Shown here in pieces: positions 2 to 64,000 of a stretch of DNA of 64,000 nt (its first letter is position 1; the number at the start of each line of letters is the position of its first letter). Where the stretch lies: NCBI GenBank assembly GCA_016191845.1, contig JACPVF010000002.1, positions 16,973 through 80,972 of the forward strand. Reading direction: 5' to 3'. The notes beneath the pieces are model-generated. The model was not told the origin of the DNA. It saw only the letters and a program-made list of their open reading frames with translations, and did not search any database. This DNA is from Chloroflexota bacterium (GTDB taxonomy: Bacteria > Chloroflexota > Anaerolineae > Anaerolineales > Villigracilaceae). The position numbers were made by a program, and so were the translations under genes.

Positions 2-340
2 ATGACCAACCTGCTCAATCGCACCCTGCGCGTCTCGGATGTCCCCACGCATTACCATGAGGAGTTCCTTGTGCTGTTGCCCGCCACCGATGAAATCGGC
101 GGACGATCCGTGGCGGAACGCATCCTGGGCCATTACCGCACCACGCAGAGCCTGGCCACGGGTCGGCTCTCGCCCAAGCGAAACGCCTACCTGGGGATCA
201 CCACCCAGAACGGAAGTAATATCCTCTCGTCCCAGCAGCTCATGGCCGAGGCCGCTGTCGCCATGAACGAAGCGCGCCTGCAAAAATCCTATACCTATAT
301 TTCCTTCTCCGATATTTCCGCAACTTTGCCCAAACCTTAG
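2..340 (+). CDS. C-terminal part of a GGDEF-like (diguanylate cyclase-like) domain protein with degenerate motif, truncated by window edge
   Basis: Translation YHEEFLVLLPATDEIGGRSVAERI resembles GGDEFxxLLPxT...A..AERI; signature reads YHEEF. ORF runs to the left edge. Confidence 0.55.
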   Translation: MTNLLNRTLRVSDVPTHYHEEFLVLLPATDEIGGRSVAERILGHYRTTQSLATGRLSPKRNAYLGITTQNGSNILSSQQLMAEAAVAMNEARLQKSYTYISFSDISATLPKP

Positions 341-59824: not shown

Positions 59825-60005
59825 GACCGTATCTTACCCGCAATCGGGCGGCTTGACAAGAAAGCCGCAATTGTCGTCCACCTAAATAATCCCAGGTGAA
59901 AATTGCACTTTCCACCCTCAAAAAAGCACAATTTTCACCCGAGTGCGGTATAGTTTAGTGCTTTGCCGAGCGCGGGGACTGGCAAAATTCTTTTGGGAGC
60001 GCACC

Positions 60006-61292
60006 ATGTCTGCCTTCGTCATGAAACATCCCCTCATTCAAACCCTGTTCGAGTTGAAGGGCAATCCACGCATCTCGGTGTGGACCGAGATCATGTTCGG
60101 CCTGCCGTACAACCTGTTCGCGCCGTTCGCTTCGGTGTACATGCTGGCCTTCGGGGTGACCGACCAGCAGATCGGCGCACTGGCCAGCCTGGGGCTGGTG
60201 GTGCAAATCTTCTCGGCGCTGGTGAGCGGCGCCATCGTGGACAAGTTCGGCCGCCGCCTGACGTTGTTCGTCAGCGACCTGTTATGCTGGAGCGTGCCCT
60301 GCGCGATCTGGGCCGTTGCGCAGGACTTCCGCTTCTTCGTGGCTGCGGCCGCGATGAACGGCCTGTGGCGCCTCTCGAACACCGCCTGGACCTGCCTGAC
60401 GGTCGAGGATGCCGAGGAGCGTCACCTCGTCCACATCTGGACCTGGATCTCGATCTTTGCCTTTTGCACGGCGCTGGTCACTCCCCTGGGCGGCTGGTTC
60501 GTGGGGCGTTTCGGGCTGGTACCCGCCGTGCGCGGACTGTACGCCTTCGGTTTCGTCATGCTGGCCGTCAAGGCCGTGGTCCTCTATATCTACTCGCACG
60601 AGACGGCGCGCGGCGTACAGCGCAGGGAAGAGACCCGTCACCGCTCGCTGGTCAGTCTGCTGGGTGAATACGGCAGCGTCTTCGGCCAGGTGCTGCGCTC
60701 CAGGCCTCTGCTGGCGGCGCTTTCGCTGATGATCATCTTCAACATCTACACCACCGTCAGCGGCAGTTTCTGGGGCGTGCTGTTCACCAGGAAGCTCGGC
60801 TTCGATGAAGGGTTGATCGCGGTGTACGTGGCCATCCGCTCGTTCGTGATGACGGTCAGTTTCTTCGCCCTCGGGCCGCGCCTGACCAACCTGCGCCGCT
60901 TCCGTTTGCCGCTGTGGACGGGCTTCAGCATCTTCATCGTCAGCCAGTTATTGCTGGTGACCATGCCGCCGCAGGCCGCCGCGCTGCTGGTGATCAGCGT
61001 GGCGCTGGAGGGGGTGGGCTCAGCCCTGGTCAGCCCGATGACCGAATCACTCCTGGCGTTGTCACTCGAATCAAAGGAGCGCGCCCGTGTCAGCGCGATG
61101 GTGTACGTGGCCCTGCTGGTGGTGATCTCCCCCTTCGGCTGGATCGCGGGCCAGCTCTCGGCCCTCGACCGCGCCCTGCCCTTTGCGCTGAACCTGGGCC
61201 TGTTCGCCCTTGGCCTGCTGGTGGTATGGATCATCGGCCGCCCAGGCATCTTTCCCCCCGCGCCGCAGCCTGAACCTGTCCAAGCAGAATGA
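60006..61292 (+). CDS. MFS transporter
   Basis: 12-TM hydrophobicity; GAIVDKFGRRLTLFVSDLL MFS loop motif. Start assigned at MSAFVM. Confidence 0.88.
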   Translation: MSAFVMKHPLIQTLFELKGNPRISVWTEIMFGLPYNLFAPFASVYMLAFGVTDQQIGALASLGLVVQIFSALVSGAIVDKFGRRLTLFVSDLLCWSVPCAIWAVAQDFRFFVAAAAMNGLWRLSNTAWTCLTVEDAEERHLVHIWTWISIFAFCTALVTPLGGWFVGRFGLVPAVRGLYAFGFVMLAVKAVVLYIYSHETARGVQRREETRHRSLVSLLGEYGSVFGQVLRSRPLLAALSLMIIFNIYTTVSGSFWGVLFTRKLGFDEGLIAVYVAIRSFVMTVSFFALGPRLTNLRRFRLPLWTGFSIFIVSQLLLVTMPPQAAALLVISVALEGVGSALVSPMTESLLALSLESKERARVSAMVYVALLVVISPFGWIAGQLSALDRALPFALNLGLFALGLLVVWIIGRPGIFPPAPQPEPVQAE

Positions 61293-61301
61293 GAGAAGCA
61301 A

Positions 61302-61333
61302 CATCCCCCTCCAGGCTGGAGGGGGACGTTTTT
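61302..61333 (+). terminator. Rho-independent terminator
   Basis: TCCCCCTCCA-ggc-TGGAGGGGGA-cg-TTTTT. Confidence 0.8.
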
Positions 61334-61436
61334 CCAGTGATTGAGTATTTGCCCATTGTTGGGTAAAATCGAACCAACAGTTTAGGACACACAACGGCAT
61401 TCTAAACACTGGTTGGGTATTCAGCAGGAAGGTGTT

Positions 61437-61982
61437 ATGAAAACGAAACTGATTAAACCGCTAAAAGAGAATATTCTCTTATTGACGGGCTGGCTTTTGT
61501 TCTTTGCACTCCTTAAAGTGTTTGAATTCTCGTGGAAATCTTGGGGTAAAAACTCAATGTGGCATGTATGGGTTTCATATTTAGGGGTGTCTGATGCGCG
61601 CCTTTCTGTTTCTCTAAGTTTTATTGTGATCGTAGTCGGTGTTGGATATCTCGCCTTTGCGCTTTCCTGGCAATTGATTGTATTTCCAACCCTGCGACGG
61701 GGAAATTTGATTAATGCCAGTGTAAGTTATCTGCGCATTCTGGATTGGTGGCTCACCTATTGCTGGTACTACCTTCTCTACTCCCTGCCAATCGTGTTCA
61801 TTATTCTATTCTTACCAGTTCTATTCTTATCAGTTTTAAATCCCATAGCAGAGAACACCCAAGATGTGATTATCTTCATATTACAAACCGCGCTCAGCCT
61901 GTGGCTCTATCGGAAGACAACCTTATCCTGCTTGTCAGAATTATCACCTGTAAAGACAGAGCCACAACCAAATCCATCTTAA
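61437..61982 (+). CDS. Hypothetical membrane protein (first AT-rich accessory ORF)
   Basis: Several TM segments; AT-rich composition relative to preceding genes; start codon 19 bp after a GTTGGGT heptamer. Confidence 0.6.
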   Translation: MKTKLIKPLKENILLLTGWLLFFALLKVFEFSWKSWGKNSMWHVWVSYLGVSDARLSVSLSFIVIVVGVGYLAFALSWQLIVFPTLRRGNLINASVSYLRILDWWLTYCWYYLLYSLPIVFIILFLPVLFLSVLNPIAENTQDVIIFILQTALSLWLYRKTTLSCLSELSPVKTEPQPNPS

Positions 61983-61998
61983 TGAAGTCTTCTCAGAA

Positions 61999-62098
61999 CA
62001 TTTCGCGAAGCGTGGCGCCGAGTTTAGAGTCCACGCCCGCCTACACACAGGTATCCCACTCGCTCCGCTCGGGGGCAATGCCGCAAACCGTTGGGTGC
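61999..62098 (+). repeat. Cassette-associated repeat copy A (5'-truncated, attC-like 3' end GTTGGGT)
   Basis: Shares CATTTCGCGAA with copy C and CCACGCCCG..CTACAC.CAGGTATCCCACTCGCTCC.CTCGGGG.CAAT..CGCAAACCGTTGGG with copy B. Confidence 0.7.
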
Positions 62099-62114
62099 AC
62101 AACAAGGAGGTAAT

Positions 62115-62627
62115 ATGCTGAGTGACCTTTACCGCGAGATAGCTAATGGAATATATTTTGTTTCATCACAGGTTCAACAGTATGAAGCGAGAAACAATAA
62201 TGTCAAAGTCTTGGCTGCTGGTGCGACAAAGGCAAGAAAATTTGATCACGACGAAGATGTGAAAAGTGGGGCGGGTTGGATTATCTCCAGGCGCGCCGTG
62301 CTTTTACTCACAACTGAAAAACTTGTTTGTGGATCTTGGGAAATTCCAATCGAAAGTATCAAGGAAGCACATTTATTACGTGTGAAAAGTATGTTTGCAA
62401 AGGCGTATGTTCTGAAGGTAACTACGGAAAGTGGGCATTATCAATTTGGTTTACAGTATGACCCAGCATGGGAAAAACAAACTGCACTAAAGTTAATTGT
62501 TGAGGATGGAAAAATAAAACGCTCAGTAATAATGAGTATGGTCAGAATACTGGTTTGGCTATATTTAATCGGCTTATGTGTCTTTAGCGTTTGGATAAGC
62601 TTCAAAGATATAGCTTTTGGTAATTAG
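62115..62627 (+). CDS. Hypothetical protein with PH/GRAM-like domain and C-terminal TM
   Basis: AGWIISRRAVLLLTTEKLVCGSWEIPIESIKEAHLL...VLKVTTESGHYQFGL; ATG 18 bp after repeat A heptamer. Confidence 0.6.
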   Translation: MLSDLYREIANGIYFVSSQVQQYEARNNNVKVLAAGATKARKFDHDEDVKSGAGWIISRRAVLLLTTEKLVCGSWEIPIESIKEAHLLRVKSMFAKAYVLKVTTESGHYQFGLQYDPAWEKQTALKLIVEDGKIKRSVIMSMVRILVWLYLIGLCVFSVWISFKDIAFGN

Positions 62628-62650
62628 TATAGGCGATTGAAGGTGAAAGT

Positions 62651-62819
62651 GCGCCTAACAAAGCGTACACCCCCGTTTCGCTTCGCTCACGGGACGAGCA
62701 GCCTGACGTGTGGTTTCCATACTTCGAGTTTTTCCTACTCCCAAGCAGAGTCCACGCCCGTCTACACGCAGGTATCCCACTCGCTCCACTCGGGGACAAT
62801 ATCGCAAACCGTTGGGCGC
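62651..62819 (+). repeat. Cassette-associated repeat copy B (attC-like: GCGCCTAAC ... GTTGGGCGC)
   Basis: Terminal heptamers GCCTAAC (62653-62659) and GTTGGGC (62811-62817) fit RYYYAAC/GTTRRRY and are mutually complementary with one mismatch. Confidence 0.7.
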
Positions 62820-62850
62820 TGGCCCATGAAAGGGATTAAATTTGCAAAGA

Positions 62851-63525
62851 ATGACTTTCTTGGCTATTGTAATTTCAAGTCTTTTGATTAGTTGTGCTTC
62901 CCAAAAAACAACCATTTACCCCACTGCCACACTAACTGGCATTCAACCAATTGAACTTACTCAATTGACAAAACCAATTTCGACTCCCAATATCAGTAAC
63001 ATACCAAGAGAAGCGCATGATTTCCTGCCCAACCCGACAGCAACACCAGATTTAGAGCGAAGAAAAGCTGAAGAAATTGCAATTTATTCAGCTTTTCTAA
63101 AAGAAACTTGCACGACTCAAGATAAGTCTTCAATTACTTTTTTGGTTTTAGAGGAGACAGTTTATGAAGAAGGTTATTATAAAGATACAGACCTCTTGCA
63201 AGAAGAACCGTCCTTATCCGTACAAACTTTACAGGACTATCGAAGAAATAATAAGGCGCAGAGGTTACCTCCTGAGATCCTTCCCGAAAATGGCCCTTGT
63301 AAATTCATTAGTCCAGACGAAGTAGCAGCCCAAAAAGAAAACTGGGATTATAAAAATTGGCTCATATATTTTTCATCAATTGGATTTAATGAAAAATATA
63401 ACCAAGCAATATTATTTAGTGGGTATTACTGTGGAAAATTATGTGCAGGCGAAGAGTTATATATCTTGCTTCGTAATAACGGAAAATGGGATGTCAAACG
63501 ATGGTTTCCACTATGGATATCTTAG
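62851..63525 (+). CDS. Hypothetical lipoprotein
   Basis: MTFLAIVISSLLISCASQ with lipobox; start could be upstream TTG 62842; ends just before repeat C. Confidence 0.6.
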   Translation: MTFLAIVISSLLISCASQKTTIYPTATLTGIQPIELTQLTKPISTPNISNIPREAHDFLPNPTATPDLERRKAEEIAIYSAFLKETCTTQDKSSITFLVLEETVYEEGYYKDTDLLQEEPSLSVQTLQDYRRNNKAQRLPPEILPENGPCKFISPDEVAAQKENWDYKNWLIYFSSIGFNEKYNQAILFSGYYCGKLCAGEELYILLRNNGKWDVKRWFPLWIS

Positions 63526-63538
63526 TTGATAATACAAT

Positions 63539-63768
63539 GCGTCCAACAAAGCGCGCACCCCGCTTCGCTTCGCTCACAGGGCGGGTGGCCTGGCGCGCGG
63601 GAGTCTGCGCAATTTACAAGCATTTCGCGAAACGCGGCTTCTAGCTTTCCCTGTTCCCAAGCAGAATCCACGCCCACCCTGGTTGTCGCGGTCGCAGGGA
63701 GTGTCGAGACACACACGCAGGTATCCCGTTCGCTCCGCTCGGGGACGATGCCGCAAACCATTGAGCGG
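63539..63768 (+). repeat. Cassette-associated repeat copy C (GCGTCCAAC ... ATTGAGCGG, with internal extra segments)
   Basis: 5' heptamer GTCCAAC fits RYYYAAC; shares CCCAAGCAGA.TCCACGCCC and CACGCAGGTATCCC.TTCGCTCCGCTCGGGGAC.ATGCCGCAAACC with A/B; 3' heptamer degenerate. Confidence 0.65.
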
Positions 63769-63906
63769 TTCTTTGCAGAACAAAAAGAAACAAAAATGAG
63801 TATATCGGAATGGAAATGTCATTGCCATGATAGCCTTTGCAAGTCCTTGATAGCAGCCCGGCTTTATCTTTGCAGAAATCTGTGACGAAAAGGAGCAAAG
63901 AATAAA

Positions 63907-64000
63907 ATGAATAAGGCAATTCGAGTTTCATCTTGGCTGGGCGTTCTTTTATTTGTCGGGGCTGTAGTCTGCCTGATCGCGTTTAACATGATTGGATCAG
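63907..64000 (+). CDS. Partial CDS at right edge (membrane protein N-terminus)
   Basis: AAGGAGCAAAG RBS-like sequence then ATG; MNKAIRVSSWLGVLLFVGAVVCLIAFNMIGS runs off the window. Confidence 0.5.
   Translation, partial: MNKAIRVSSWLGVLLFVGAVVCLIAFNMIGS

Follow-up and report, generated by a model that had tools for sequence, protein, structure and literature searches.

Integrons of the Chloroflexota are already on record (PMC2426708, PMC8618304, PMC9668308), and the array described here adds another member. Clusters of attC sites lacking an integron integrase form a named category (CALIN), and the origins proposed for them include loss of intI or its action in trans (PMC8618304). The superintegron of Vibrio cholerae (IntIA, VCR attC sites) resembles the present system in its IntI subfamily, in one-ORF cassettes of a single orientation, in long attC sites that are homogeneous within the genome, in an attI beside intI, in a crossover at G|TTRRRY and in orphan cargo. 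It differs in that here several arrays lie on different contigs and two IntI belong to different subclades, while the array under study has no intI of its own and carries damaged sites. The attC sequence is also of an Anaerolineales type and not VCR-like. As in CALIN, the cassettes are bounded by attC sites and no intI is found on the contig; unlike CALIN, the array opens with an attI-like relic, which points to the loss of a former intI and not to off-target insertion.

The whole stretch of DNA analysed (the window, 64,000 nt) corresponds to C1:16973-80972 of a genome of 18 contigs and 4.63 Mb, from an uncultured Chloroflexota bacterium of Anaerolineales type. Its final base is the end of contig C1 (80,972 bases), so the contig stops inside the array. 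The window almost certainly contains the left part of a cassette array that belongs to a sedentary chromosomal integron system, and this array is probably one without an integrase of its own (a CALIN). An earlier, sequence-only reading had proposed an integron-like cassette array, either of a sedentary or unusual integron or of a functionally similar system. The claim of an array is borne out by two IntI in the genome, attC-model matches, covariation in the stem, the breakpoints of attI sites and the pairing of boxes with the previous R' (see below); the sedentary option was the right one, and a functionally similar system need not be invoked. The chromosomal flank, outside the array, is an MFS gene with its terminator (nt 59943-61330, plus strand; MFS_1 match in Pfam; terminator at nt 61300-61330). 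Past this terminator the shift to AT-rich DNA is as first described, with 37-41% G+C in the cassette ORFs compared to 59% across the preceding 61.3 kb, and the three plus-strand ORFs, with a G+C-rich repeat behind each (A, B and C), were found at the places originally given.

Cassette ORF 1 (nt 61437-61982, plus strand, 181 aa) encodes a putative membrane protein with no match in Pfam or NCBIfam and no relative among 300 genomes of the order. ORF 2 (nt 62115-62627, plus strand, 170 aa), initially called 'PH-like', specifies a protein with a hydrophobic C-terminal stretch and one C-terminal membrane helix; it has no Pfam match above cut-off and no NCBIfam family, and no relative was found among the same 300 genomes or in viral contigs. 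ORF 3 (nt 62851-63525, plus strand) is a putative lipoprotein, with a signal peptide carrying a LISC box, and has weak relatives (29-35% identity) in its own genome and in three others. The start of a fourth cassette ORF follows site C (ATG at nt 63907) and is cut by the contig end (nt 63907-64000, plus strand). The cargo had been judged to be without evident role, and the three ORFs indeed belong to no known family and have almost no relatives; they are orphan genes, as is usual for chromosomal cassettes. Elsewhere in the genome, a cassette ORF of C15 (L044:8919-9471) shares 73% amino-acid identity with one in an array of HGW-Chloroflexi-3 (L161:4614-5156), the attC sites on the two sides being unrelated. 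No shared cassette from the window was found in this comparison.

The repeats had been bounded at nt 61999-62098 (A), 62651-62819 (B) and 63539-63768 (C). Over the final 73 nt, A is 90% identical to B and 70% identical to C. Site B (nt 62653-62817, plus strand) is a complete attC of a long subtype, with R'' GCCTAAC at nt 62653-62659, R' GTTGGGC at nt 62811-62817, and the layout GCCTAAC AAA GCGT...CGC AAACC GTTGGGC; its start and end boxes are exactly those read at first. Site A (nt 61999-62098, plus strand) consists of the middle and right arm only (R' GTTGGGT, nt 62090-62096), the R''/L'' left arm being missing between the stop codon of ORF 1 and A, and is not matched by the attC model described below. 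Site C (nt 63541-63766, plus strand) is full length and of the long subtype (R'' GTCCAAC, nt 63541-63547), but its R' has mutated to ATTGAGC (nt 63760-63766), and with this change the crossover point G|TT loses its G. The assignment of the repeats as attC sites therefore stands for B, which is intact in both R boxes, and needs qualifying for A, a half-site, and for C with its altered R'; within the window, the pattern of an ORF followed by a complete attC is seen at B. Pairing of each R'' with the previous R' is likewise blurred, with two mismatches for B against A and one for C against B, unlike most arrays elsewhere, where exact pairs are kept. Folding had been suggested as a check, and in this respect the repeats disappoint: the DNA folds of A, B and C as whole sites do not exceed those of shuffles in stability (z-scores near zero or positive), and whole-sequence folding energy is consequently not evidence here. 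An Rfam scan of the window gave no match and no attC-type family.

A blast search of the genome with repeat B gave about 50 matches, most of them in arrays on other contigs. The clusters lie on C1, C3, C7 and C17, at C13:472-474k and C8:489-496k, and at four places on C15 (0-1k, 82k, 170k and 287-293k). Copies scattered in random orientation would have spoken against attC sites; instead, most stand in arrays of ORFs and repeats that keep a single orientation, and in the arrays of other contigs each attC goes with one ORF. On C13, for example, three attC sites of exactly 130 nt each alternate with ORFs on one strand. A covariance model of 130 positions, trained solely on attC sites of the sister genome G001, was searched against all 64 kb of the window on both strands and gave two matches only. 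Site B was matched over model positions 1-130 (22.6 bits, E 0.0022) and site C in its core (18.3 bits, E 0.025), an outcome in favour of the integron. Across the whole genome there were 19 matches with E < 0.01, located within the repeat clusters or next to them; one of the 19 lies at the opposite end of C1, outside the window (C1:1688-1810, 45.5 bits).

RNAalifold, applied to ten G001 sites, found the expected R and L arms unprompted; the stem shows 22 cells with compensatory changes on both sides, compared to 8.1 in shuffles, and is 92% paired, compared to 30-40% when the partner is slid. At the genome level, then, R''/R' and L''/L' are able to pair, as judged from the consensus fold and the compensatory changes. 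The long subtype (B, C and other sites) has one extra segment per arm (CGTTTCGCTTCGCTCACGGG on the left, CCCACTCGCTCCGCTCGGGGACGATG on the right). When up to three mismatches are allowed, each segment occurs 20 times in the genome, almost always in the attC arm and orientation predicted for it; a reversed control pattern gave no match. Sites of 61 nt were also noted, at L041 (C7):3395-3455 and 235-295 (minus strand) and at L040 (C3):2283-2343, and these look like deletions between the two extra segments. A generic scan for R''/R' boxes and arm complementarity, in which canonical 130-nt sites score 32-37, was too noisy in the G+C-rich core genome below a score of 30. The end of C13 (L045:9774-9908) and the start of C15 (L043:1-134) have the same 135 bases in common: the left arm of an attC (GCCCAACAAAGCGTGCAG) and, after it, about 120 bases that belong to one element. 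It seems that copies of a single insertion element sit at the corresponding position of two different attC sites. The end of this element reads FLTILNAMMRDKTPFRQMAA*, which is reminiscent of IS110-family transposases. Joining C13 to C15 via these identical ends would be wrong, as both enter the same 120-base element in the same direction.

Two integron integrases are encoded in the genome, one at C15:1859-2800 (446 bits to TIGR02249, for which the curated cut-off is 265 bits) and the other, IntI2, on the minus strand at C13:474113-475051 (409 bits). Both were also recovered by an NCBIfam scan, both keep the catalytic R, HxxR, H and Y residues, and the closest solved relative of both is the Vibrio IntI 2a3v, to which they align over their full length, through the IntI-specific insert. 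They represent different subclades, and the C13 enzyme is closest to those of L156 and L149 (66%). IntI above the curated cut-off occur in 23 of 41 related genomes. An IntI-type recombinase had been sought within tens of kilobases of the array: the genome supplies two with the specific insert, but none was found on the 80,972 bases of C1.

The attI sites of C15, C13, G001 and L098 share homology as far as G|TT, beyond which come unrelated cassettes. The homology ends in ...CGTAG|TTRRRY or ...CATAG|TTGGGC; an attI beside intI with G|TTRRRY is thus present, the C15 box (GTTGGCT) being one position off the consensus. Comparison of cassette boundaries, one of the checks envisaged at the outset, places the break in attI homology exactly at G|TTRRRY, both between platforms and between species. 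In a cassette circle, R'' pairs with the TTRRRY at the start of its own cassette, which in an array is the box of the previous site. This relationship was examined in 50 neighbouring attC pairs from the present and related genomes, not all of them independent. Exact reverse complementarity of R'' to the previous R' was seen in 41 pairs, and to its own R' in 18, while permutations gave a mean of 10.8 and a maximum of 23 (31 when made within loci). Even the unusual boxes GTTGGCT and GTTGTGC obey the rule. Cutting of cassettes at that point is the sole reading that predicts such pairing, and the comparison shows the cassettes of this genome to be mobile units, with G|TTRRRY as their point of cutting and joining.

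The array starts with a site that was absent from the first list of features. It lies directly behind the MFS terminator (nt 61378-61418, plus strand; CAGTTTAGGACACACAACGGCATTCTAAACACTGGTTGGGT), ends in GTTGGGT (nt 61412-61418), and matches the last 40 nt of a site found twice on C7 and also on C3. Local alignment to the array-start site of C7 scores 49; the second-best place in the window scores 31, and shuffles reach no more than 26. On C7, a site of this type opens an array immediately behind a chromosomal gene and has no attC left arm, and in L149 it is the attI adjoining an intI. Given these matches, and the closeness of the C13 IntI to those of L156 and L149, the site at nt 61378-61418 is read as the relic of a second attI class ('attI2').

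The same hybrid site of about 260 nt, in which the left arm of an attC is fused to a right end of attI2 type, closes a cassette at L040 (C3):1136-1394 and another at L041 (C7):2197-1938 (minus strand). The R''/R' boxes of the two copies change together (GCCTAAC/GTTAGGC and GCCCAAC/GTTGGGC). They are like the delta-attI cassettes, which are resistance cassettes of mobile integrons tested with IntI1, in that an attI piece replaces the normal attC arm, and unlike them in being chromosomal, outside the window and known from sequence alone (PMC12901181). Around IntI2 (L045:8078-9780; C13:474077-475779), the integrase gene ends 28 nt past an attC R' box, and the ORF divergent from it is followed by another attC start, whose R'' (GCCCAAC) is the exact complement of the previous R' (GTTGGGC). 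No attI was found in the 60 bases between IntI2 and the divergent ORF. IntI2 seems to lie inside a cassette on C13; the pairing of the boxes adds little to this, since GCCCAAC is the commonest box. The array start on C13 carries a truncated intI of the C15 type with an adjoining attI (L045:4469-4636). That parts of integrons move as cassettes, as IntI2 in its apparent cassette, the attI2 arms at cassette ends and the attI2-like array start might indicate, is a speculative proposal that we regard as rather unlikely.

The sister species was represented by G001 (JACRBN01, groundwater Chloroflexi MAG NC_groundwater_1621). Its MFS ortholog is 81% identical, homology to the window stops at about nt 61325, and an unrelated toxin-antitoxin-like pair follows; no cassette array was found after the ortholog in this one comparison, made at species distance. 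The locus varies between these relatives, with an array in the window and none at this place in G001. Elsewhere, G001 has an intI followed by ten 130-nt attC sites, and this integron is similar to that of the present genome in its IntI (up to 85% identical to the C15 IntI), in the same 130-nt attC type and in a homologous attI. It is dissimilar in that the attC sites by its intI are plain 130-nt sites, without the two extra segments, and in having no array behind the MFS gene.

Three other explanations deserve consideration. The repeats hold small GC-rich inverted motifs (GCTTCGCTTCGC, CTCGCTCCGCTC), as do REP-type repeats, and copies occur on many contigs, as would be the case for dispersed palindromic sequences that lie downstream of genes and are no recombination sites. 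Such repeats would not be expected to fall mostly into arrays of one orientation, with the extra segments nearly confined to attC sites, nor do they predict R and L arms with extrahelical positions, the presence of IntI, the break of attI at G|TTRRRY or the pairing of R'' with the previous R', and this explanation is extremely improbable. A different objection is that the array may be the near or the far end of a complete integron with intI just past the contig end, and so no CALIN. C1 does end within the array, and C3 and C17 open with array pieces oriented so that they could follow it; yet the MFS gene and an attI-like relic, with no intI, close off the left boundary where intI would usually lie, and the genome's two intI genes map to contigs other than C1, making a complete integron unlikely.

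With the CALIN reading retained, the nature of its first site can still be argued. Since attI2-type right arms are fused to attC left arms within the C3 and C7 arrays, the motif can travel, and the copy at nt 61378-61418 has a short self-complementary left arm of its own. It might then be a short or attI-derived cassette-end site, of delta-attI or attC type, that arrived with a cassette. Against this stand the C7 array, which such a site opens right behind a chromosomal gene and with no attC left arm, and L149, where the site is a normal attI next to intI; we hold the cassette-end reading as a doubtful but tenable alternative to the attI2 relic.

In the mechanism proposed, IntI would fold and cut the bottom strand of attC, and cassettes would be excised as circles bounded at G|TTRRRY and inserted at attI or attC sites. 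Within this genome's lineage, the array in the window probably arose at a site of attI type downstream of the MFS gene. The integrase responsible would either have been lost since (a former intI2 here) or have acted in trans. Drift would have followed: among the three attC sites, B alone retains the full set of arms and R boxes. Because the sites have drifted, the local cassettes are probably close to fixed, and site B may remain a substrate of the IntI that other contigs encode. With A and C damaged, no integrase on the contig and no array in the sister species, the local array is taken to be a decaying CALIN, served in trans if at all.

This Chloroflexota lineage is integron-rich; it has many arrays, which are partly worn and full of orphan genes. 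Pairing of R'' with the previous R' (41/50) is a simple mark of cassette movement that can be read from sequence only, and it may help to rank arrays by age, as arrays with an intI preserve it intact and the array in the window shows it blurred. Cassette ends derived from attI, and an integrase apparently carried in a cassette, provide leads on the origin of attC sites and of new arrays. If parts of integrons do move as cassettes, mobile attI and intI pieces could seed arrays and form new attC sites.
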